A stretch of 64,000 bases of DNA from Arthrobacter sp. DNA4 (lineage in GTDB: Bacteria; Actinomycetota; Actinomycetes; Actinomycetales; Micrococcaceae): NCBI RefSeq assembly GCF_024362385.1, contig NZ_CP101466.1:1488001-1552000 (forward strand), given 5' to 3'. Below, piece by piece: positions 30,251 through 40,102 of this stretch; the first letter of the stretch is position 1, and each line of letters begins with the position of its first letter. The translations under genes were made by a program, and so were the position numbers. The notes under the pieces were generated by a model. That model did no database searches, was not told where the DNA came from, and was given only the letters and a program-made list of their open reading frames with translations.

Positions 30251-31462
30251 TTACTGGTAGTCGGCCAGCCAGAGGTCCGGGCCGAAGACTTCGTACTGGA
30301 TGTCCTTCGCCCGCACTCCTGCGCCCACCAGGGCGGTCCGCACCGCCTGCATGAAGGGCATGGGGCCGCAGAGGTAATACTCGGCGTCGGACGGCAACTG
30401 GACGTCCTTGATGTTCATGAACCCGGAATGCACGCTGCCGTCGGCGGAAGAGCCCCCGCCGTCCGGGTTGAGGAACCAGGCATGGAGGGAAGCATCGGAA
30501 AGTGCGGTGAGGTCGGCCGTGACCTGGTTCCGCAGTGCAAACGAGGCAGGGGAGTCGGCCGCGTGCAGGAACAGGACCTTCCGCTGGGAGCCGGACTTGA
30601 CCAGATGGGACAGCATGCCGGCCATGGGCGTGATTCCGATGCCCGCGCTCGCCAGCACCACGGGCCGGTCAGTGTATTCCAGCACCACATCGCCGAAGGG
30701 CGCTGAGAGGGTGACTTCGTCACCCACGTTGACGTGGTCGTGCAGGAGGCTGGACATCTCACCGTCCGGCGCGCCTTCAGTGCGCACGCGCTTGACCGCG
30801 AACCGCCGGTGCTGCCCGTCGTCGGCCTGGGTGAGGCTGTACTGGCGCGGCTGCAGGACACCGTCGGGCATCTGCATGCGGATGGTGACGTACTGTCCCG
30901 GCAGCGACGGCTTAACCTCCCTCTCGTCGGTCCGCTCCACCACGAAACTGACAACGTCGTCGGTTTCCTGGATCTTTTCGGCCACACGCCAGGTGCGCCA
31001 GACAGTTTCCGGGCTCAGCCGGACCGCGTCATAGAGCCCGCGTTCCTTATTGATGAGCATGTTGGCCATGAGCCAGTAGACCTCATCCCAGGCCGCGGCC
31101 ACCTCAGGTGTCACCGCGTCGCCCAGGACGTCCACAATGGCCCACATCAGGTTGTCGTGCACCACCTGGTACTGCTCAGGACTCAGGCCCAGGGAGACGT
31201 GCTTGTGCGAGATCCGGGACAGCAGATGGTCCGGCAGGTGGGTGGGGTCGTTGACCAGGAAGCCGGCGAACGCGGCAACCGAACCGGCCAGCGCCTGCTG
31301 CTGCCGGCCATCGGCCTGGTTGCCGCGGTTGAACAGGCCGTTGAGTAGTTCGGGGTGTTCGCCGAACATGTGCTTGTAGAAACGGGAGGCGATCTCCTGG
31401 ATATGTTCGCCGACGACGGGAAGGGTCGCCTGGATCACGGGGTAAGCGGTGTCGGAAAGCAT
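30251..31462 (-). CDS. hmp: Flavohaemoprotein (nitric oxide dioxygenase)
   Basis: The 403-residue protein oxidises nitric oxide to nitrate with O2 and NAD(P)H. Residues 1-140 are a globin with the proximal histidine in SRISHKHVSLGL (about residue 85). Next is an FAD domain (RQYSLTQA, about residue 207), then an NAD domain with ASAGIGITPM (about 271) and the ending CGPMPFMQAV. ATG 31462 follows AAGGAG with good spacing; the frame stays open upstream but overlaps dusB and has no similarity there. I see no clear NO-sensor operator. Confidence 0.95.
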   Translation of the reverse strand: MLSDTAYPVIQATLPVVGEHIQEIASRFYKHMFGEHPELLNGLFNRGNQADGRQQQALAGSVAAFAGFLVNDPTHLPDHLLSRISHKHVSLGLSPEQYQVVHDNLMWAIVDVLGDAVTPEVAAAWDEVYWLMANMLINKERGLYDAVRLSPETVWRTWRVAEKIQETDDVVSFVVERTDEREVKPSLPGQYVTIRMQMPDGVLQPRQYSLTQADDGQHRRFAVKRVRTEGAPDGEMSSLLHDHVNVGDEVTLSAPFGDVVLEYTDRPVVLASAGIGITPMAGMLSHLVKSGSQRKVLFLHAADSPASFALRNQVTADLTALSDASLHAWFLNPDGGGSSADGSVHSGFMNIKDVQLPSDAEYYLCGPMPFMQAVRTALVGAGVRAKDIQYEVFGPDLWLADYQ

Positions 31463-31594
31463 GGGCAAGTCTCCTTCAAACGTCCTGGCTGGTTGTCCGT
31501 CCCCGCGCCACGCTAACAGCCGTCCGAAACCGGGGACAGGTACTTTGGCACTGGACTGGATCCCCGATTTGCCCGGCTTTGCAACAATGGACAG

Positions 31595-32773: not shown

Positions 32774-34085
32774 CGCATCCCTGGCCGGACACCCGCCCGC
32801 GGGCACCCCCACCGCAGCCCTGGCACTGCCGGGCTACGACACGCACGATTCCGCCCGCTGGGTGGAGGAGCCGCCCAAGAGCACGTACCGCTCCGACTTT
32901 GAGCGGGACCGCGCCCGGGTGCTGCACTCGTCGGCCCTCCGCCGGCTGGGCGCCAAGACCCAGGTGGTGGCACCGGACACCGACGACTTCGTCCGCACCC
33001 GCCTCACCCACAGCCTGGAAGTAGCACAGGTGGGCCGCGAACTGGGCCGCGCCCTGGGCTGCGATCCGGATGTAGTGGACACCGCCTGCCTCAGCCACGA
33101 CCTCGGCCACCCGCCTTTCGGCCACAACGGCGAATCGGCCCTGAACGAGGTGGCCCACGCCATCGGCGGCTTCGAAGGCAACGCCCAGACCCTCCGGCTG
33201 CTCACCCGGCTCGAACCCAAGGTCCTCGCGGCCGACGGCAGGCCCGCCGGACTGAACCTCACCCGCGCCAGCCTTGACGCGGCGTCGAAATACCCCTGGT
33301 CAGCGCTGGAAGCACCGGTGATCCACGGGCAGCGGACCAGCAAGTTCGGCGCCTACGAGGACGATCTCCCCATCTTCAACTGGATCCGCGAAGGTGCCCC
33401 GGAACGCCGGACCTGCCTCGAAGCCCAGGTCATGGACCTGGCGGACGACATCTCCTATTCCGTGCACGACGTGGAAGACGCGATCGTCGCCGGCCACTTC
33501 CAGCTGCGCTGGATGGACAACCCGGACCACCGCGCACGCGTGGTGGGCTACGCCAAGCAGTGGTACCTGCCGCATAACGACCCCGCCGCCATTGACGCAG
33601 CCCTCGCCCGGCTGGAAGCCACCGACGTCTGGGTGCGCGAGGCCGACGGCAGCCGCAAATCCATGGCGGCGCTGAAGAACATGACCAGCCAGCTGATCGG
33701 CCGGTTCTGCCAGAGCGCCCTGGAAACCACCCGCGCCGTGTACGGGCCGGAAAACCTGACCCGCTACAGCGCCGAACTGATGGTTCCCGACGAAACCGTC
33801 ATGGAGATCGCGGTGATGAAGGGCCTGGCCACCACCTTCGTGATGACCACAGAGCACCGGCAACCCATCTACGAGCGGCAGCGGGAAGTGCTCCATGCCC
33901 TGGTGACCGCCCTCAGCGCCACGGGTGACCGGCACCTGGAGCCGATGTTCGCAGCGGACTGGCGGGCGGCGGACGACGACGGCGCGCGCCTTCGCGTGGT
34001 CATCGACCAGGTGGCGTCACTCACCGATGGATCGGCCCTGGCCATGTACGAGCGCCTGGTGGGGAGCCTGCCCTCGCTCTGGTGA
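32766..34085 (+). CDS. dgt: Deoxyguanosinetriphosphate triphosphohydrolase-like protein
   Basis: This 439-residue HD-domain protein has metal ligands in RLTHSLEVAQVG (about residue 83) and SHDLGHPPFGHNGE (about 117-130), plus DLADDISYSVHDVEDA (about 228-243). The family cleaves dNTPs to nucleoside plus triphosphate; actinobacterial members are often annotated dGTPase without proof of base preference. GTG 32766 overlaps the end of dusB. dusB-dgt(-dnaG) is a common actinobacterial order; here the redox cassette separates dgt from dnaG. Confidence 0.9.
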   Translation: MADASLAGHPPAGTPTAALALPGYDTHDSARWVEEPPKSTYRSDFERDRARVLHSSALRRLGAKTQVVAPDTDDFVRTRLTHSLEVAQVGRELGRALGCDPDVVDTACLSHDLGHPPFGHNGESALNEVAHAIGGFEGNAQTLRLLTRLEPKVLAADGRPAGLNLTRASLDAASKYPWSALEAPVIHGQRTSKFGAYEDDLPIFNWIREGAPERRTCLEAQVMDLADDISYSVHDVEDAIVAGHFQLRWMDNPDHRARVVGYAKQWYLPHNDPAAIDAALARLEATDVWVREADGSRKSMAALKNMTSQLIGRFCQSALETTRAVYGPENLTRYSAELMVPDETVMEIAVMKGLATTFVMTTEHRQPIYERQREVLHALVTALSATGDRHLEPMFAADWRAADDDGARLRVVIDQVASLTDGSALAMYERLVGSLPSLW

Positions 34086-34201
34086 CCCGCCGTTGGCTCC
34101 CGCCCGGACGTCCGCCCGATCAACAGCTTCCTTAAAGCATCTACACAGGAACGAAGCGCACCATGGGAGGAAAGACAGGCCGCTAGGAACGGGAGCTGGT
34201 C

Positions 34202-34525
34202 ATGAGTACTCGCAGCAGGGGCAAGCGCCTCGCCACCGGGATCACCGCGGCCGTCGGTGTTGGCAGCTTCGCCGCTGCCGGGGTCGCGGCAGCTGCCGTG
34301 TACGCCGCAACGCCGTCTGTCATCGCCAGGACCACTCCAGCCACGGACACCAGCACGCAGGGAAGCACCCCCAAATCCGGTCCTGCCCGCTCCGATGACG
34401 ACGACTACGGGACCCGCCAGAACAGCAGCCCCCGCCGCTCCAAGAGCTACGGCAATTACGGCAGCACCACGCCGGTCCAGCCAGGCAGCGGGGGTACCGT
34501 CCACGGCCGGTCCTCGGGGTCCTGA
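34202..34525 (+). CDS. Short exported protein at the head of the redox cassette
   Basis: This 107-residue protein has basic residues, then a membrane or signal helix (TGITAAVGVGSFAAAGVAAA, about residues 12-31), and a low-complexity tail rich in Ser, Thr, Gly and Asp (DDDDYGTRQ, SKSYGNYGS). apbE starts one base after its stop, so they are co-transcribed. In similar clusters the gene here is often an FMN-binding acceptor protein; no DGxT/SGAT-type flavinylation motif is seen, so this could be a truncated relative or an unrelated lipoprotein-like factor. It is a real gene by position and codon use, but function is unknown. Confidence 0.6.
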   Translation: MSTRSRGKRLATGITAAVGVGSFAAAGVAAAAVYAATPSVIARTTPATDTSTQGSTPKSGPARSDDDDYGTRQNSSPRRSKSYGNYGSTTPVQPGSGGTVHGRSSGS

Positions 34526-34526
34526 C

Positions 34527-35699
34527 GTGGCACGTTCCGCTATGGCAGGTCCCGGTGCCCCGGCTACCAGGACCGCAGGGCGCACAGCACCGGCTGGGTG
34601 CACACCCCCGGAAGACACAGCACCCCCGCAAGGGCCAGCGTCCTCGGAAGGCACACCGTCCCCGAAAGGCACAGCATCCCCGCAAGACACAGCGCAAACC
34701 CGCTGGACTGTGTGGGGGCTTGAGGCCTCGGTCACGGTCACGGAACCGGCACTGCTTGGCGCGGCGGGGGACATTGTCCGGAATGCCGTGGCGGAGGTTG
34801 ACCTCGCCTGCAGCCGCTTCCGGGAAGATTCGGAACTGATGAGGCTCCAGCCCCAGATGGCGCGGGGTGTCAGCATCAGCCCCATGTTCCGGCTGCTCCT
34901 TGAACGTGCCCTGGACGCTGCCCGGATGACCGGCGGCGACGTTGACCCCACTCTCGGCGCCGATCTGGCCGCGTTGGGCCACGGCCCGGGAACGCAGGGC
35001 AGTCCGGGGCTCACCAGCGTGCCGGTACCGCCGCAGCCTGTGTCATCCCAGCCGGTACCGCAGCACCCTCTACCGGCACCCCGGGCACCCGGCTGGTCCC
35101 GCCTCAAGCTTGGTGCCGGGACCCTCACTGTGCCAGCCGACCTCCGCCTGGACCTGGGGGCGTCGGCAAAGGCTGTCGCGGCCGATCTTGCCGCCGCAGG
35201 TGCCTACCGGGAGCTGGGCTGCGGGGTGCTCGTGGGCCTGGGCGGTGACCTGGCCAGCGCCGGGCCCGGACCGCACGAGGACGGCAGGCCCGGCCACTGG
35301 CAGATCATGGTGCAGGACCTTCCTGCCGATCCTGCCCAGTACATCTCTCTGGCCCCGGGGTTCGCCGTGGCCACGTCCAGTACGCAGAAACGCCGCTGGA
35401 AGCACCAGGGGACGCAGGTCCACCACATCCTTGATCCCCGCTTTGGCCTCCCCGCCGAGCCGGTCTGGCGTTCGGTGAGTGTCGCAGCGCCCACCTGCCT
35501 GGAAGCGAACGCTTTCAGTACCGCGGCCATTGTCCGCGGCTTCGCTGCCCTGGACTGGTTCCGGACCGAAGGCATTACTGCCCGGCTGGTGGACAGCCGG
35601 GGCAGGGTCGCCACCACTGGCGGCTGGCCGGCGGAAACCTGCAACCCCGGTGGGAGCACCGGGGAAAGCATTACTCCCGGGGGTGGCGGCCATGGATGA
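34527..35699 (+). CDS. apbE: FAD:protein FMN transferase (ApbE family)
   Basis: The 390-residue protein resembles ApbE, which attaches FMN from FAD to Ser/Thr of extracytoplasmic proteins. Motifs present are VDLACSRFREDSEL (about residues 91-104), the core DLGASAKAVAADLAA (about 209-223), VGLGGDLASAGP (about 236-247) and the metal loop HHILDPRFG (about 298-306). The first 60 residues are low-complexity Pro/Thr/Ser-rich, and a Pro/Gln-rich insert lies at about 155-185. GTG 34527 is used (ATG 34542 possible). The stop overlaps the next gene (ATGGATGA), so the cassette is coupled. Confidence 0.85.
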   Translation: MARSAMAGPGAPATRTAGRTAPAGCTPPEDTAPPQGPASSEGTPSPKGTASPQDTAQTRWTVWGLEASVTVTEPALLGAAGDIVRNAVAEVDLACSRFREDSELMRLQPQMARGVSISPMFRLLLERALDAARMTGGDVDPTLGADLAALGHGPGTQGSPGLTSVPVPPQPVSSQPVPQHPLPAPRAPGWSRLKLGAGTLTVPADLRLDLGASAKAVAADLAAAGAYRELGCGVLVGLGGDLASAGPGPHEDGRPGHWQIMVQDLPADPAQYISLAPGFAVATSSTQKRRWKHQGTQVHHILDPRFGLPAEPVWRSVSVAAPTCLEANAFSTAAIVRGFAALDWFRTEGITARLVDSRGRVATTGGWPAETCNPGGSTGESITPGGGGHG

Positions 35700-36249
35700 G
35701 GCGATGTGGGCGTTCGGCCGGGTCAGCGGGTTTGTGTCCCTGGCACTCTTCACCGCGTCGGTGCTGCTGGGCATCCTCAACCGGTCCGGCCGGCCCCTGT
35801 TGGTGCTGCCCCGGTTCTCCATCAGCCTCCTGCACCGGAACATCGCACTGCTCGCCGCGGTGTTCCTCGGACTGCATGTGGGCTCCCTGCTCCTTGACTC
35901 CTTTGCCAAGCTGAACCCGGTGGACATCGTGGTGCCCTTCCTGGGCTCCTTCCAGCCGTTCTGGCAGGGGCTGGGCACCGTGGCGCTGGACCTTGTCCTG
36001 GCCGTGGTGGTGACGGGCCTGCTGCGGCACCGGATCGGGCAGCGCAGTTTCAAGGCCGTGCACTGGCTCAGCTATGGCGTCTGGCCGGTGGCGATGGCGC
36101 ATGCGTTGGGCAACGGCACTGACGTCTCCAGCGGCTGGTTCCTCCTGCTGGCCGCGGCGTCCGCGGTGGCCGTTGCCGCGGCCCTGCTGTGGCGGCTGAG
36201 CCCCTCCTTCCTCGAAACCTCCCACGCCCGGCAAGGAAACCTCCCGTGA
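35692..36249 (+). CDS. Ferric-reductase-like transmembrane haem protein
   Basis: This 185-residue protein has about five or six helices. Histidines H48 and H62 (spacing 14) and H124 and H137 (spacing 13) form the paired arrangement of ferric reductase/NOX-type domains, which hold two stacked b haems. No FAD or NAD domain is attached, so electrons must come from a separate protein, plausibly the downstream flavoprotein or ferredoxin. It overlaps apbE upstream and the NuoF-like gene downstream by a few bases. Confidence 0.78.
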   Translation: MDEAMWAFGRVSGFVSLALFTASVLLGILNRSGRPLLVLPRFSISLLHRNIALLAAVFLGLHVGSLLLDSFAKLNPVDIVVPFLGSFQPFWQGLGTVALDLVLAVVVTGLLRHRIGQRSFKAVHWLSYGVWPVAMAHALGNGTDVSSGWFLLLAAASAVAVAAALLWRLSPSFLETSHARQGNLP

Positions 36250-37514
36250 GCCACGCCAAGGACACCTACCCGACGACGCCCCTTCACGCCGTACAGGACA
36301 ACAAGCGGCAGGAACCGCGGCTCCTGGCAGCAGGCCCTGACGCAGGCTGGGAACAGCACCTCGACACCTTCGGGCCCTGGGACCCGCACGCTGCGGGAGC
36401 CGGACTGCTGGAGGCGCTCGCCGAGGCTGGACTGACCGGCCGGGGCGGAGCCGCTTTCGAAACCTGGCGCAAAGCCACTGCCGCTGCCGGGTCCGGCCGG
36501 AAGGGTTTGTTTACGGCCCGGCCGGTGGTGATCGCCAACGGCGCCGAGGGCGAACCGCTCAGCTTCAAGGACCGCACCCTCCTTACCCACGCGCCCCACC
36601 TGGTCATCGACGGGCTGGCCGCCATGGCCGCGGCCCTGGGCGGCGCAAGCATGTATGTCTACGCGCCGGCGGCCGGCCTGCCCCGCGTGCAGCAGGCCGT
36701 CGGCGAACGCCCCCGGGGCAACCGGATCCGGGTAGTGCAGGCACCCGAAACCTTCATCTCCGGCGAGTCGAGCGCCGTCGTCAATATGATCGGCAACGGC
36801 AGCGCTGTCCCCACCGACCAACGCCGGCGCCTCAGCGAATCCGGCCTTAACGGCCGGTCAACACTGGTGGTCAACGTCGAAACCCTCGCCCAGGTTGCCC
36901 TGATCGCCCGTTACGGGGCGCAGTGGTTCCGCCAGGCGGGCACCGCGACGGATCCGGGCACTCGGCTGGTGTCCGTTTCCGGGCCTGCCCCGGTACGGGA
37001 TGTGGTGCTGGAGGTGCCCGGCGGTGCGCAGCTTTCGGCGGTCCTGCAGGAAGCGGGCATGGACCCTGCCGCCTTGTCCGCCGTCCTGGTGGGCGGCTAC
37101 CACGGCCGGTGGGTGCGGCCCGCGGCACATGCGCTTTCACCCGTGGGGCCGCCGGACCGGACCGCCCGGCCGGGCGCAGGAGTGATCCATGCCCTGGATC
37201 TGCGGACCTGCGGGATCCAGGCGACGGCCCGGATCGTCAGCTACCTTGCGGACCAGTCCGCCAGGCAGTGCGGGCCCTGCATGTTCGGACTTCCGGCCAT
37301 GGCGTCCGTCCTCAACAGGATCGCCGGAGGGGAAACGAATCCACGCCTTGCCTCCGAACTGGACCGGCTGGGGAGGCTGGTCTCCGGGCGGGGCGCGTGC
37401 AGGCACCCGGAGGGGACCACCGGGCTGGTCAGCAGTGCCCTGGAGGTCTTCGCCGCAGACTTCCGCGCCCACCTCTCCGGATACTGCACAGGCCCGGGAG
37501 GCGCAGCAGCATGA
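36246..37514 (+). CDS. NuoF-like NADH-binding flavoprotein with reduced Fe-S site
   Basis: This 422-residue protein is a divergent relative of the complex I 51-kDa subunit. Aligned marks are GRGGAAFETWRKA (residues 65-77; NuoF has GRGGAGFPTG), NGAEGEPLSFKDR (98-110), ETFISGESSAVVN (168-180), NVETLAQVALIARYG (210-224) and an SLBB-like region. The Fe-S loop has C342-G-P-C345 and C384, but the first cysteine of NuoF's C-x2-C-x2-C is Ala339, so the usual four-Cys cluster is incomplete. C322 or C414 could substitute. GTG 36246 overlaps the haem gene by four bases (GTGA). The role is probably NAD(P)H oxidation feeding the membrane haem. Confidence 0.8.
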   Translation: MSHAKDTYPTTPLHAVQDNKRQEPRLLAAGPDAGWEQHLDTFGPWDPHAAGAGLLEALAEAGLTGRGGAAFETWRKATAAAGSGRKGLFTARPVVIANGAEGEPLSFKDRTLLTHAPHLVIDGLAAMAAALGGASMYVYAPAAGLPRVQQAVGERPRGNRIRVVQAPETFISGESSAVVNMIGNGSAVPTDQRRRLSESGLNGRSTLVVNVETLAQVALIARYGAQWFRQAGTATDPGTRLVSVSGPAPVRDVVLEVPGGAQLSAVLQEAGMDPAALSAVLVGGYHGRWVRPAAHALSPVGPPDRTARPGAGVIHALDLRTCGIQATARIVSYLADQSARQCGPCMFGLPAMASVLNRIAGGETNPRLASELDRLGRLVSGRGACRHPEGTTGLVSSALEVFAADFRAHLSGYCTGPGGAAA

Positions 37515-37771
37515 AGACGCACCTGCATATCGACTGGACCAGCTGCGACGGCCGCGGCCTGTGCGCCGAACTGCTTCCCGGCGTGCTGGACCGGGACGAT
37601 TGGGGGTACCCCGTGGCGCGCGGGAAGGCAGGCCGCGACAGGACCGACGTTACGCTGCGCGACGCAGACCGGGAAGCCGCACAGGAGGCAGTCTTCCTCT
37701 GCCCCAAGCTGGCCCTCAGCCTGCTCGACGGGAGGACACCGGAACCGGGGACGCGGGTGCCCGGGCAGTGA
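37511..37771 (+). CDS. Ferredoxin of the [3Fe-4S]-like type
   Basis: This 86-residue protein has cysteines C12-x5-C18 and C64-Pro. This three-Cys pattern is typical of [3Fe-4S] ferredoxins that often serve cytochromes P450. Its ATG overlaps the end of the NuoF-like gene (GCATGA), so it is the last gene of the cassette. It likely carries electrons between the flavoprotein and the haem protein or to another partner. dnaG follows 29 bases later. Confidence 0.85.
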   Translation: MKTHLHIDWTSCDGRGLCAELLPGVLDRDDWGYPVARGKAGRDRTDVTLRDADREAAQEAVFLCPKLALSLLDGRTPEPGTRVPGQ

Positions 37772-37800
37772 CGCCTGGCCGGTGACACTAAGATTGCTGT

Positions 37801-39732
37801 GTGGCTGGGCTGATTAAACGTGAAGATATTGACGAAGTACGCCAGCGCACGGACATCAAGGAAGTGGTTGACGGCTACGTCACGCTCAAGGGCGCCGGGC
37901 TGGGAACCTTCAAGGGCCTGTGCCCCTTCCATGACGAGCGCTCGCCGTCCTTCACTGTCCGTCCCCAGGTAGGCCGTTACCACTGCTTCGGTTGCGGCGA
38001 GGACGGCGATGTCATCGCCTTCGTCCAAAAGCAGGACCACAGCTCCTTCCAGGAAGCCGTGGAGAAGCTCGCGTCCAGGATCGGCTACGAGCTCCGCTAC
38101 GAAGACGGTGGAACCGGCCCCAACCGCGAGGAAGTGGGCCGCCGGCAGCGGCTGCTGGACGCCCATAAGATTGCGGACGAATTCTTCCGTGCCCAGATGC
38201 TCACGCCCGGTGCCGCAACGGCCCGCAACTTCCTCTTTGGCCGTGGCTTCGACCGGGCCGCCGCGGAACATTTTGGCTGCGGCTACGCTCCCCAGGGGTG
38301 GGACGCCCTCCTGAAGCACTTGCGCGGCCGCGGCTTCACCGACGCCGAGCTCAAGCTCACCGGAATGTTCAGCGAAGGAAACCGGGGCATCTACGACCGT
38401 TTCCGCGGCCGCCTCATCTGGCCCATCAAGGACATGGCCGGTGACACCATCGGCTTCGGCGCACGCAAGCTGTATGAGGACGACCAGGGCCCCAAGTACC
38501 TCAACACCCCGGAGACCACCCTCTACAAGAAGTCCCAGGTCCTCTACGGCATCGACCTCGCCAAGAAGAGCATCGCCAAAGACAGGCAGCTGGTGGTGGT
38601 GGAGGGCTACACCGATGTCATGGCCTGCCACCTTGCAGGGATTACGACGGCGGTAGCCACCTGCGGCACCGCCTTCGGTACCGAGCACATCAAGATCGCC
38701 CGCCGGCTTTTGTCCGACGACGGCACCGGGGGAGAAGTGGTGTTCACCTTCGACGGCGACGCCGCCGGGCAGAAGGCAGCCCTGCGCGCCTTTGAAGAGG
38801 ACCAGCGCTTCACCGCCCAGACGTACGTGGCCGTGGAACCCACAGGCGCGGACCCGTGCGATCTCCGCCTCAGCCGCGGGGACGAGGCGGTGCACGCCCT
38901 GATCCAGTCCCGGCGGCCGCTGTTCGAGTTCGCCATCCGCAGCACTCTCAAGCAGTTCAACCTGGACACCGTTGAAGGCCGCGTCCAGGGCCTCAAGGCA
39001 TCCGTGCCCGTGGTGGCCGCCATCCGCGACGCCTCCACCCGGACGGGCTACTGCCAGGCCCTGACCGGCTGGCTGGGCATGCCGGACCCCAACGAAGTCC
39101 TGCGCCTGGTCACCGCAGCCGTCAAGCGCGGCGAGACCGGACGGCCCCCGGCTCCGGGCCAGCCGCAGCCAGGCGGCCCCTCCAGCCCGGCCCCTGCCCA
39201 GCCGGGCGGACCCGGCGTAGCTGCCGCGCCGTCGTCGGGCGTTGTCCCCTCCTTCCACCGCCCGGACCCGCGCGATCCTGTGGCTTCCATGGAGCGGCAG
39301 GCGCTGGAAGTGGCGCTGCAGCAACCCTCCCTGCTGGCCGGCGGGGTTTGGGACCGTTTTGCCGCTGCCCGGTTCGCTATCCCTGCCTTCCAGGCCGTCC
39401 ACGATGCCATGCGCGCCACTGGTCCCGGCCTGACCGTCGATCCGGTGCGCTGGGTGGAGCACGTCATGCACGAGGTTCCGGAACCCCTCCGGCCGCTGGT
39501 ATCCGAGCTCGCCGTCGTGCCGCTGCCGGCCCACACCGAGGAAGCGGTGCTGAAGTACTGCCGCGACATTCTGTCCCGCCTTTTCGAACTCCAGATCACC
39601 CGGGTCAAGGCGGACAAGATGGGCCAGCTGCAGCGCCTTGACGCGGCGGCGGACCCGGAGACCTACCAGCGGCTCAACCGCGAGCTGATGATGCTGGAAA
39701 TGGAACGCCGGGCCCTGCGCGCGGAGTCGTAG
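37801..39732 (+). CDS. dnaG: DNA primase
   Basis: The 643-residue primase makes RNA primers at the replication fork. The zinc domain CHC2 is CPFHDERSPSF then YHCFGCGEDGD (about residues 41-67). The Toprim core has VVVEGYTDVMA (about 264-274) and FTFDGDAAGQKAA (about 317-329). A Pro/Gly-rich linker (about 445-485) leads to a C-terminal DnaB-interaction domain. GTG 37801 is the start. Length and order are normal for an actinobacterium. Confidence 0.96.
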   Translation: MAGLIKREDIDEVRQRTDIKEVVDGYVTLKGAGLGTFKGLCPFHDERSPSFTVRPQVGRYHCFGCGEDGDVIAFVQKQDHSSFQEAVEKLASRIGYELRYEDGGTGPNREEVGRRQRLLDAHKIADEFFRAQMLTPGAATARNFLFGRGFDRAAAEHFGCGYAPQGWDALLKHLRGRGFTDAELKLTGMFSEGNRGIYDRFRGRLIWPIKDMAGDTIGFGARKLYEDDQGPKYLNTPETTLYKKSQVLYGIDLAKKSIAKDRQLVVVEGYTDVMACHLAGITTAVATCGTAFGTEHIKIARRLLSDDGTGGEVVFTFDGDAAGQKAALRAFEEDQRFTAQTYVAVEPTGADPCDLRLSRGDEAVHALIQSRRPLFEFAIRSTLKQFNLDTVEGRVQGLKASVPVVAAIRDASTRTGYCQALTGWLGMPDPNEVLRLVTAAVKRGETGRPPAPGQPQPGGPSSPAPAQPGGPGVAAAPSSGVVPSFHRPDPRDPVASMERQALEVALQQPSLLAGGVWDRFAAARFAIPAFQAVHDAMRATGPGLTVDPVRWVEHVMHEVPEPLRPLVSELAVVPLPAHTEEAVLKYCRDILSRLFELQITRVKADKMGQLQRLDAAADPETYQRLNRELMMLEMERRALRAES

Positions 39733-39827: not shown

Positions 39828-39900
39828 TCCTCCTTAGCTCAATTGGCAGAGCATTCGACTGTTAATCGAAGGGTTGCTGGTTCAAGTCCAGCAGGAGGAG
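39828..39900 (+). tRNA. tRNA-Asn (GTT), copy 1
   Basis: A full cloverleaf is present: acceptor TCCTCCT/AGGAGGA, anticodon stem TTCGA/TCGAA with loop CTGTTAA (anticodon GTT), and T stem GCTGG/CCAGC with TTCAAGT. The discriminator is G39900, and no CCA is encoded. It is identical to the copy at 40023. Confidence 0.96.
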
Positions 39901-39905
39901 CTTCC

Positions 39906-39941
39906 ATCCCCGTTCCGGCCTCCGGAACGGGGATTTTTGTT
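39906..39941 (+). terminator. Terminator after tRNA-Asn copy 1
   Basis: A perfect 13-bp stem (ATCCCCGTTCCGG, 39906-39918, with 39922-39934) and three-base loop is followed by TTTTGTTT. It is a textbook intrinsic terminator. Confidence 0.88.
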
Positions 39942-40022
39942 TCCTTGCAGGCCCGTCCGGGCCCGGAAAACCGCCGATTTCCCTTCGGCCGGAATCCTTT
40001 GCTAATGTCATACCTGCTTCAT

Positions 40023-40095
40023 TCCTCCTTAGCTCAATTGGCAGAGCATTCGACTGTTAATCGAAGGGTTGCTGGTTCAAGTCCAGCAGGAGGAG
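40023..40095 (+). tRNA. tRNA-Asn (GTT), copy 2
   Basis: The 73 bases are identical to copy 1, with the same stems and anticodon GTT. The ten bases before it (CTTCATTCCTCC context) also match copy 1, showing a tandem duplication of about 195 bases. Confidence 0.96.
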
Positions 40096-40102
40096 CGCAA
40101 CG

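Follow-up and report, generated by a model that had tools for sequence, protein, structure and literature searches.

Organization of the locus

A window of 64,000 nucleotides from the genome of Arthrobacter sp. DNA4 (contig NZ_CP101466.1, positions 1,488,001 to 1,552,000), the whole stretch of DNA that was analysed, contains a cassette of five + strand genes between dgt and dnaG, in which a small protein of 107 residues (gene 1, here called the tether) is encoded beside a flavin adenine dinucleotide (FAD):protein flavin mononucleotide (FMN) transferase of the ApbE family and is a candidate substrate of this enzyme. All coordinates in Table 1 are positions within the window. Gene 1 is separated by one base from apbE (GTG start, 390 residues), which overlaps by 8 bases with the gene of a haem protein (185 residues); the latter shares 4 bases with a NuoF-like gene (GTG start, 422 residues), which in turn overlaps by 4 bases with a ferredoxin gene (86 residues), and dnaG follows from 37801. 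These spacings (+1, -8, -4 and -4 bases) agree with a preliminary description of this DNA, in which the five overlapping or nearly touching genes at 34202-37771 were considered as one unit. A consensus scan of 33900-38000, which is a weak test in a genome rich in G and C, revealed neither a sigma70-like promoter nor a + strand terminator-like site.

Table 1. Features of the five-gene cassette and the evidence for each of them
Feature	Position	Strand	Evidence
Tether protein (gene 1), 107 residues: basic N terminus, one hydrophobic segment, low-complexity linker of ~70 residues, C-terminal HGRSSGS	34202..34525	+	Open reading frame call; SSGS end in 45/45 database relatives
Hydrophobic segment of the tether, ~residues 11-36 (limits by eye), proposed N-in/C-out anchor	34232..34309	+	Hydropathy 1.76; charge bias in family
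Proposed flavinylation end HGRSSGS, last Ser as proposed FMN acceptor	34502..34522	+	End conservation; motif definition (PMC12052999)
apbE, FAD:protein FMN transferase family, without hydrophobic signal-like segment	34527..35699	+	PF02424; solved ApbE relatives
ApbE Asn328 codon, position equated with Asp285 of Vibrio cholerae ApbE	35508..35510	+	Alignment of 94 ApbEs
MsrQ/ferric-reductase-like predicted dihaem membrane protein, His48/62/124/137	35692..36249	+	PF01794; His conservation
NuoF-like flavoprotein, Cys342/Cys345/Cys385 kept, Ala339 at first cluster Cys of NuoF	36246..37514	+	PF01512, PF10589; alignment; solved relatives
Three-Cys single-cluster ferredoxin, C12, C18, C64	37511..37771	+	Fer4_15, 48 bits

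Four of the products were matched above the Pfam gathering score, namely ApbE (PF02424, 149.5 bits, E 1.7e-43), the haem protein (Ferric_reduct, PF01794, 34.8 bits with a cut-off of 28), the NuoF-like protein (Complex1_51K, PF01512, 96.8 bits; NADH_4Fe-4S, PF10589, 59.8 bits), in which an NADH-type flavoprotein had already been recognized, and the ferredoxin (Fer4_15, 48.0 bits). Gene 1 gave no Pfam match at E<=1, the FMN_bind family (PF04205) included, and its sole NCBIfam match was a ribosomal protein model at E 0.2, far under the cut-off of that model. An FMN_bind protein as the missing partner within the cluster was rejected, since PF04205 matched none of the five genes.

The tether protein and its relatives

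Relatives of the tether found among the 80 NuoF-like loci considered below share a basic N terminus, a single hydrophobic segment, a freely varying low-complexity linker and a fixed end. In distant loci the gene 1 profile no longer matches, while proteins of the same build terminate with SGGS, TGGS, TNGS, TGAS, or SGAT. The linker beyond the hydrophobic segment comprises 43-138 residues (median 74), and the end persists while the linker changes. In 69 of 73 family members the net charge before the hydrophobic segment exceeds that after it, which predicts an N-in/C-out orientation. Gene 1, described earlier as a short secreted protein, is by its anchor-like segment and conserved end more likely a membrane-anchored tether and a candidate ApbE substrate, with an arm of about 70 residues that is probably disordered. 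By eye, an A-x-A signal-peptide cleavage site can be recognized in only part of the members, and for this reason an anchor is preferred over a cleaved and freed tether, which would be the alternative.

The survey of tethers covered 121 loci, i.e., the window, the 80 best of 182 relatives found by a scan of genome contigs with the NuoF-like protein, and 40 loci of a phylum sample; 103 of them were used, and 18 (L035, L081, L084, L096, L116-L128, and L131) were left out as having neither apbE nor a haem gene as an anchor. Candidates were open reading frames (ORFs) preceding apbE (or the haem gene) and selected by position, hydropathy, and composition without use of the end; the cut-offs were fixed after the family was already known, and the ORF of lowest complexity was taken when several passed. 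Among the 80 apbE-anchored loci, the window included, 67 candidates possessed the end [ST]-x-[AG]-[ST], five had another end, and eight loci gave no candidate, so that 67 of 72 candidates chosen blind to the end carried the motif. The 23 loci with a haem gene only yielded six motif-ended tethers, two candidates with other ends, and 15 without any, and the same filter applied elsewhere in the loci found the motif end in 11 of 168 background ORFs. Nine of these 11 resemble further tethers by place and end only (L039, L052 with two, L094, L096, L104, L113, L129, and L079), and those of L072 and L046 are chance or unassigned matches. The eight loci without a candidate include a fused gene (L020), a masked sequence (L031), a contig edge (L047), and five with a motif-bearing ORF outside the filter (L046, L052, L065, L082, and L129). 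Candidates lacking the motif were found in L095, L098, L100, L101, and L113, the last of which has a likelier tether in another ORF ending with DASSNAS. In the 73 motif-bearing picks, a set conditioned on the motif, the last four residues are S or T, a variable residue, G (70) or A (3), and S (72) or T (1).

The possibility that the end is kept solely through the ribosome-binding site of apbE was rejected, as the codons of the conserved Ser and Gly residues vary synonymously, Thr and Ala variants occur, and the end is kept where the next gene is not apbE (L055, L059, L066, L080, L092, L093, and the first tether of L039); in the close relatives of the window this site may add a constraint. Two tether-like genes per locus were observed in L036, L038, L039, L052, L094, and L104, and in L038 and L039 they flank the two-component genes. 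In L079 the main cluster is adjoined, on the other strand, by another haem gene together with a tether-like gene of its own that ends with VSVSGGS (L079:4319-5751, - strand).

The tether end as a candidate flavinylation site

According to the sections devoted to the motif in a review that covers the flavin-tag (PMC12052999), ApbE recognizes D-x-x-[ST]-G-A-[ST] with FMN attached to the last residue, seven residues are sufficient, and such tags work best at protein ends. Replacement of Asp by Ala has a minor effect, changes of Gly to Ala or Ala to Val reduce flavinylation to about half, and Thr is a better acceptor than Ser (PMC12052999). The HGRSSGS end fits this motif in register and keeps [ST] at -3 and 0, i.e., two of the five fixed positions; therefore gene 1 falls outside the full motif. 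Distant tethers come closer to the textbook form, such as SGAT (L085), TGAS (L078), and DARSGGS, DTQSGGS, and DTRSGGS (L063, L064, and L069).

A phylum search with tether-type ApbE gave matches in 114 of 396 genomes at E<=1e-30, and 20 weaker ApbE matches from it, hand-picked and not random, served as a wider sample. These loci contained a haem gene in 17 of 20 cases, an upstream tether candidate in 18, and a NuoF-like gene in one. The motif was located at the C terminus in seven of the 18 candidates and within six residues of it in another seven, where 1-6 more residues follow, and thus it is not merely an end signal. Since haem protein, tether, and ApbE occur together in these loci mostly without a NuoF-like gene, the tether-ApbE-haem module seems wider than its NuoF form. 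Taken together, it is likely that gene 1 is flavinylated as a substrate of the cassette ApbE.

A distinct ApbE group

The residue roles of ApbE, including the catalytic Asp285 of the Vibrio cholerae enzyme, are described in part of the same review (PMC12052999). In an alignment of 94 ApbEs the position equated with Asp285, set by alignment at 28 residues after the His with no structure used, is occupied by Asn in 71 of 72 tether-linked proteins (Glu in L094) and by Asp in all 20 FMN_bind-linked ones, while the active-site Ser and His are each present in 72 of 72 tether-linked ApbEs. The window ApbE bears Asn328 in place of the catalytic Asp. In the midpoint-rooted FastTree tree of the 94 proteins a single split (node values 0.99 and 0.89) separates the tether-linked group from the FMN_bind-linked one. 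Split, masked, or poorly framed genes (L010, L064, L020, L031, L029, L052, L129, and L113) were left out of the alignment and tree, and L055 entered them only as FMN_bind-linked. The ApbEs of the 20 wider loci have Glu at the catalytic position in 19 cases and Asp in one.

No hydrophobic stretch was detected by hydropathy in the 60 residues ahead of the domain in 84 of 85 ApbE matches, which include split genes and three FMN_bind-linked proteins, the exception being the fused L020. The lack of a hydrophobic signal-like segment in the window ApbE and its relatives casts doubt on the preliminary statement that FMN attachment by ApbE takes place outside the membrane; cytosolic ApbEs are known, as indicated in part of (PMC12052999).

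The association of tether and enzyme was further analysed in 40 genomes chosen by hand, not at random, among those whose loci contain the cluster; all 40 have ApbE. No FMN_bind match was found in 23 of them, and 14 combined this absence with exactly one ApbE (G382, G366, G390, G210, G349, G398-G401, G408-G410, G421, and G422), which by coordinates is located inside the cluster; the tether has the Ser/Gly end in 12 of these 14 and a variant Cys tail in two (G210 and G349). DUF2271 was absent from all 14 as well, the search for ApbE substrates in these genomes having covered FMN_bind and DUF2271. In G038 and G361 the tether is found beside haem and NuoF-like genes with no local apbE or ferredoxin match, and the sole ApbE, placed elsewhere, is of the tether type. 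The genome of the window has two other ApbE sites (4302445-4304925 and 2913644-2914648), each with an FMN_bind match, and at the former a PF01794 protein completes a canonical MsrQ-like arrangement.

Haem protein, NuoF-like protein, and ferredoxin

The preliminary description of a 185-residue protein with the haem pairs H48/H62 and H124/H137 and no flavin domain stands, since these His residues are conserved in 89, 89, 89, and 88 (His48, His62, His124, and His137, respectively) of 89 aligned haem proteins, the window included, and form two predicted haem sites. The ferredoxin was likewise rightly recognized by its three Cys residues 12, 18, and 64, which are conserved in 96, 96, and 99 of 105 sequences, respectively. 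In the NuoF-like protein Cys342, Cys345, and Cys385 are invariant in 121 of 121 sequences, Cys322 and Cys414 likewise show no variation, His387 is retained in 105 of 121, and Ala339 replaces the first cluster Cys of NuoF. With three of four cluster Cys, no NuoE or NuoG partner among the five cassette genes, and a score against the NCBIfam NuoF model of 142.5 bits (cut-off 558.65 bits), the protein differs from NuoF of complex I.

In 13 loci (L116-L128) the NuoF-like gene and ferredoxin occur without a haem or apbE match, which suggests a portable NAD(P)H:ferredoxin reductase formed by these two proteins and supports the order NAD(P)H, NuoF-like protein, ferredoxin, haem protein. Pfam neighbours of this pair are an amidohydrolase and a Rieske protein in L118, an alpha/beta hydrolase in L125, and a thiolase/ChsH2-type ORF in L117, and the neighbourhood of L116 resembles that of L118 by eye.

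Distribution and insertion site

According to record names, 77 of the best 80 of 182 NuoF-like relatives belong to Actinobacteria, one to Sporosarcina, and two to Acidobacteria. The loci of the latter three (L034, L047, and L077) are near actinobacterial ones (NuoF-like identity 43-61%), for which contamination, misbinning, or transfer are possible reasons. When the gene content of the 80 loci was scored with profiles made from the window proteins, 66 contained haem, apbE, and ferredoxin genes, ten haem and ferredoxin, one haem and apbE (with the ferredoxin on the other strand), and three ferredoxin only. Rare co-occurrence of the five genes, named earlier as an observation that would speak against a functional set, is contradicted by these 66 of 80 loci and, for the tether, by the motif-ended ORFs beside ApbE in 67 of 80 apbE-anchored loci. 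The haem and NuoF-like genes without ApbE or tether on the stretch were found in five of the 80 loci (L037, L068, L071, L074, and L076) and in nine of the 40 phylum-sample loci (L106-L112, L114, and L115), in which the NuoF-like protein is paired with a more distant form of the haem protein.

Within the family a NuoF-like match at E<=1e-90 was present in 30 of 197 genomes, and in 5 of 12 among the same-genus genomes listed. In all seven same-genus genomes without such a match dgt and dnaG are separated by 34-76 bases (dgt stop included), which is consistent with the insertion between these genes proposed earlier; the patchy presence together with this close spacing therefore characterizes a patchy, cassette-like unit.

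In 26 of the 121 loci, genes of a histidine kinase and an OmpR-type response regulator are located upstream of the cluster and no more than about 7 kb from the NuoF-like gene, either on the same strand (L022, L023, L026, L027, L029, L031, L038, L039, L054, L057, L066, L095, L098, L100, L101, L104, and L105) or on the opposite one (L055, L067, L070, L071, L073, L075, L077, L078, and L079); those of L039 are backed by Pfam. No match to two-component genes was found near the cassette in the window, and the upstream system hints at regulation only. Other neighbours in the window are a flavohaemoglobin-like gene with globin, FAD, and NAD domains (30251-31465, - strand), about 3 kb ahead of the cassette, and two tRNA-Asn (gtt) genes beyond dnaG (39828-40096).

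Proposed mechanism

The cassette may represent a transmembrane electron-export module ending in a tethered flavin. In this scheme NAD(P)H would reduce the FMN and the iron-sulphur cluster of the NuoF-like protein, the ferredoxin would deliver electrons to the dihaem protein at its cytosolic face, and the two haems would take them across the membrane, the outer one reducing an FMN that the cassette ApbE had linked covalently to the terminal Ser of gene 1. Held by an N-terminal anchor and some 70 linker residues that are probably disordered, this FMN could swing from the haem to an acceptor located within or close to the cell wall; candidates for this acceptor are Fe(III), a quinone, or another envelope oxidant. 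A possible path from NAD(P)H across the membrane was suggested in the preliminary description and is plausible from the gene content; the complete outward route as far as the tethered FMN is somewhat favoured by the data, with flavinylation itself, the direction of electrons, the membrane side, and the acceptor being predicted.

Evaluation of alternative explanations

Several observations weigh against flavinylation of an outward-facing tether end. Of the five fixed positions of the ApbE motif, HGRSSGS differs in three (H instead of D, S instead of G, and G instead of A), and its last Ser would be a poorer FMN acceptor than Thr. Ends rich in Ser and Gly easily produce chance matches: the loose motif occurred in 60 of 495 background ORFs, counted with a filter slightly looser than the main one and in a background that probably includes some true tethers; moreover, 4 of the 18 wider candidates carry no motif, and L094, included in the 67 by its RTFAS end, meets the pattern in form only. 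The tethers of L095, L098, L100, and L101, which constitute one family beside tether-type ApbE, have a two-Cys tail (C-[YT]-x-x-P-S-G-x-x-x-C-like) in place of the Ser/Gly end, which is possibly a disulphide-closed acceptor loop. In L020 there is no separate tether, the tether N terminus being fused in frame to part of apbE (L020:6771-7409), which looks like an internal deletion or assembly fault. On the enzyme side, the catalytic Asp is replaced by Asn in the tether-linked group, so that activity of this group has the status of a prediction, and the genome of the window has two FMN_bind proteins elsewhere. Finally, ApbE seems cytosolic while the tether end seems outward-facing, which implies either modification before export or an unconventional export of ApbE; flavinylation before export would be the simplest reconciliation.

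Some of these facts are also compatible with other explanations. If the conserved end were a signal for processing, sorting, or partner docking, with ApbE acting on another protein and gene 1 as an accessory subunit, the poor fit of the window end to the textbook motif, the FMN_bind proteins of the same genome, and the position of the motif at the exact C terminus in most tethers would be accounted for. This is unlikely in view of the 14 of 40 hand-picked genomes with the cluster ApbE only and no FMN_bind match, the existence of exact SGAT and TGAS tethers, the motif trailed by 1-6 residues in 7 of 18 further candidates, and the co-occurrence of tether and tether-type ApbE even when unlinked. 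It is still less probable that the end is cytosolic and its FMN acts as a shuttle inside the cell, linking the haem protein to the NuoF-like protein or to the ferredoxin: the 84 of 85 ApbE matches with no hydrophobic stretch ahead of the domain would suit such an arrangement, but the charge bias in 69 of 73 tethers predicts the opposite orientation, and the FMN_bind-linked ApbE of L089 likewise has no such segment, yet FMN_bind systems are taken as extracytosolic in the relevant part of (PMC8238504). In the form of the preliminary description, NAD(P)H would drive a haem reductase acting on ferric iron or quinones, with no direct role in electron transfer for either ApbE or gene 1; this agrees with the haem and NuoF-like genes standing without ApbE or tether in 9 of 40 phylum-sample and 5 of 80 loci. 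Six other haem-only loci do carry a tether, however, and the pairing of a motif-ended tether with ApbE in 67 of 80 apbE-anchored loci is poorly explained if the two are an unneeded pair, so this version appears very improbable. The flavinylated tether thus remains the preferred interpretation.

Significance

In the sections of the study by Meheust et al. (2021) on orphan ApbEs, 4% of the genomes of their set (670) still had ApbE lacking a known substrate after DUF2271 and DUF3570 were added, and less prevalent substrates were stated to remain unidentified (PMC8238504). The tether is a concrete candidate substrate for part of these "orphan" ApbEs. If the proposed modification is true, ApbE specificity has a readable sequence mark, a flavin acts in electron transfer without a protein pocket of its own, and its arm is long enough to reach into the cell wall, offering a swinging-arm solution for electron transfer across it by an economical design, i.e., a flavin cofactor on the end of a floppy membrane-anchored protein. 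On balance, though by a modest degree of confidence, we favour a widespread actinobacterial class of covalent flavoproteins without a flavin-binding fold, consisting of an anchor and a disordered arm with FMN at or near the C terminus, and served by dedicated ApbE groups with a differing catalytic acid (Asn in NuoF-type cassettes and Glu in further loci, with Asp for FMN_bind targets).

Comparison with known systems

The preliminary description could not name this gene set; its outline has already been reported by Meheust et al. (2021), who in the sections on MsrQ-like clusters recorded 1797 such flavinylation clusters with broad conservation among Actinobacteria, a NuoF-like protein being present in 31 (PMC8238504). 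These clusters typically carry an FMN-binding-domain gene, and NAD(P)H was proposed as the donor (PMC8238504). The cassette shares with them the PF01794 dihaem protein (34.8 bits, 8-base overlap with apbE; two haem sites predicted from four conserved His), ApbE, the PF10589 NuoF-like protein, and the actinobacterial origin. It differs in the ApbE without a signal-like segment and in the FMN_bind gene, typical and not required in such clusters, which is absent here and replaced by a domainless tether, the FMN_bind matches of the same genome lying elsewhere; gene 1 itself has an anchor-like segment and no PF04205 domain. The parts of (PMC8238504) on MsrQ-like clusters and orphan ApbEs contain no mention of a domainless tether, and among the titles and abstracts listed in literature searches none describes such an ApbE tether.

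The engineered flavin-tag, as presented in part of (PMC12052999), is similar in its short motif at a protein end with no need for a flavin-binding domain, but it is a laboratory tool, whereas the tethers are a conserved family found in nature, with an ApbE group of their own. FMN_red proteins, according to part of the report by Huang et al. 2024 (PMC11334425), also bear the ApbE motif on an unstructured C-terminal extension, which in contrast to the tether stands beside a folded flavin-binding domain and is predominantly found in Firmicutes. The NuoF-like protein possesses the Nuo51 FMN-binding and 4Fe-4S regions common to the complex I 51-kDa subunit and HydB-type flavoproteins, and is distinguished from the former by Ala339 and by the lack of a NuoE/NuoG partner. 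The cassette enzyme corresponds to ApbE FMN transferases in the PF02424 domain and the active-site Ser and His, with Asn instead of the catalytic Asp. Thus, the cluster type is known in outline, and the domainless tether with its conserved end is the new part.

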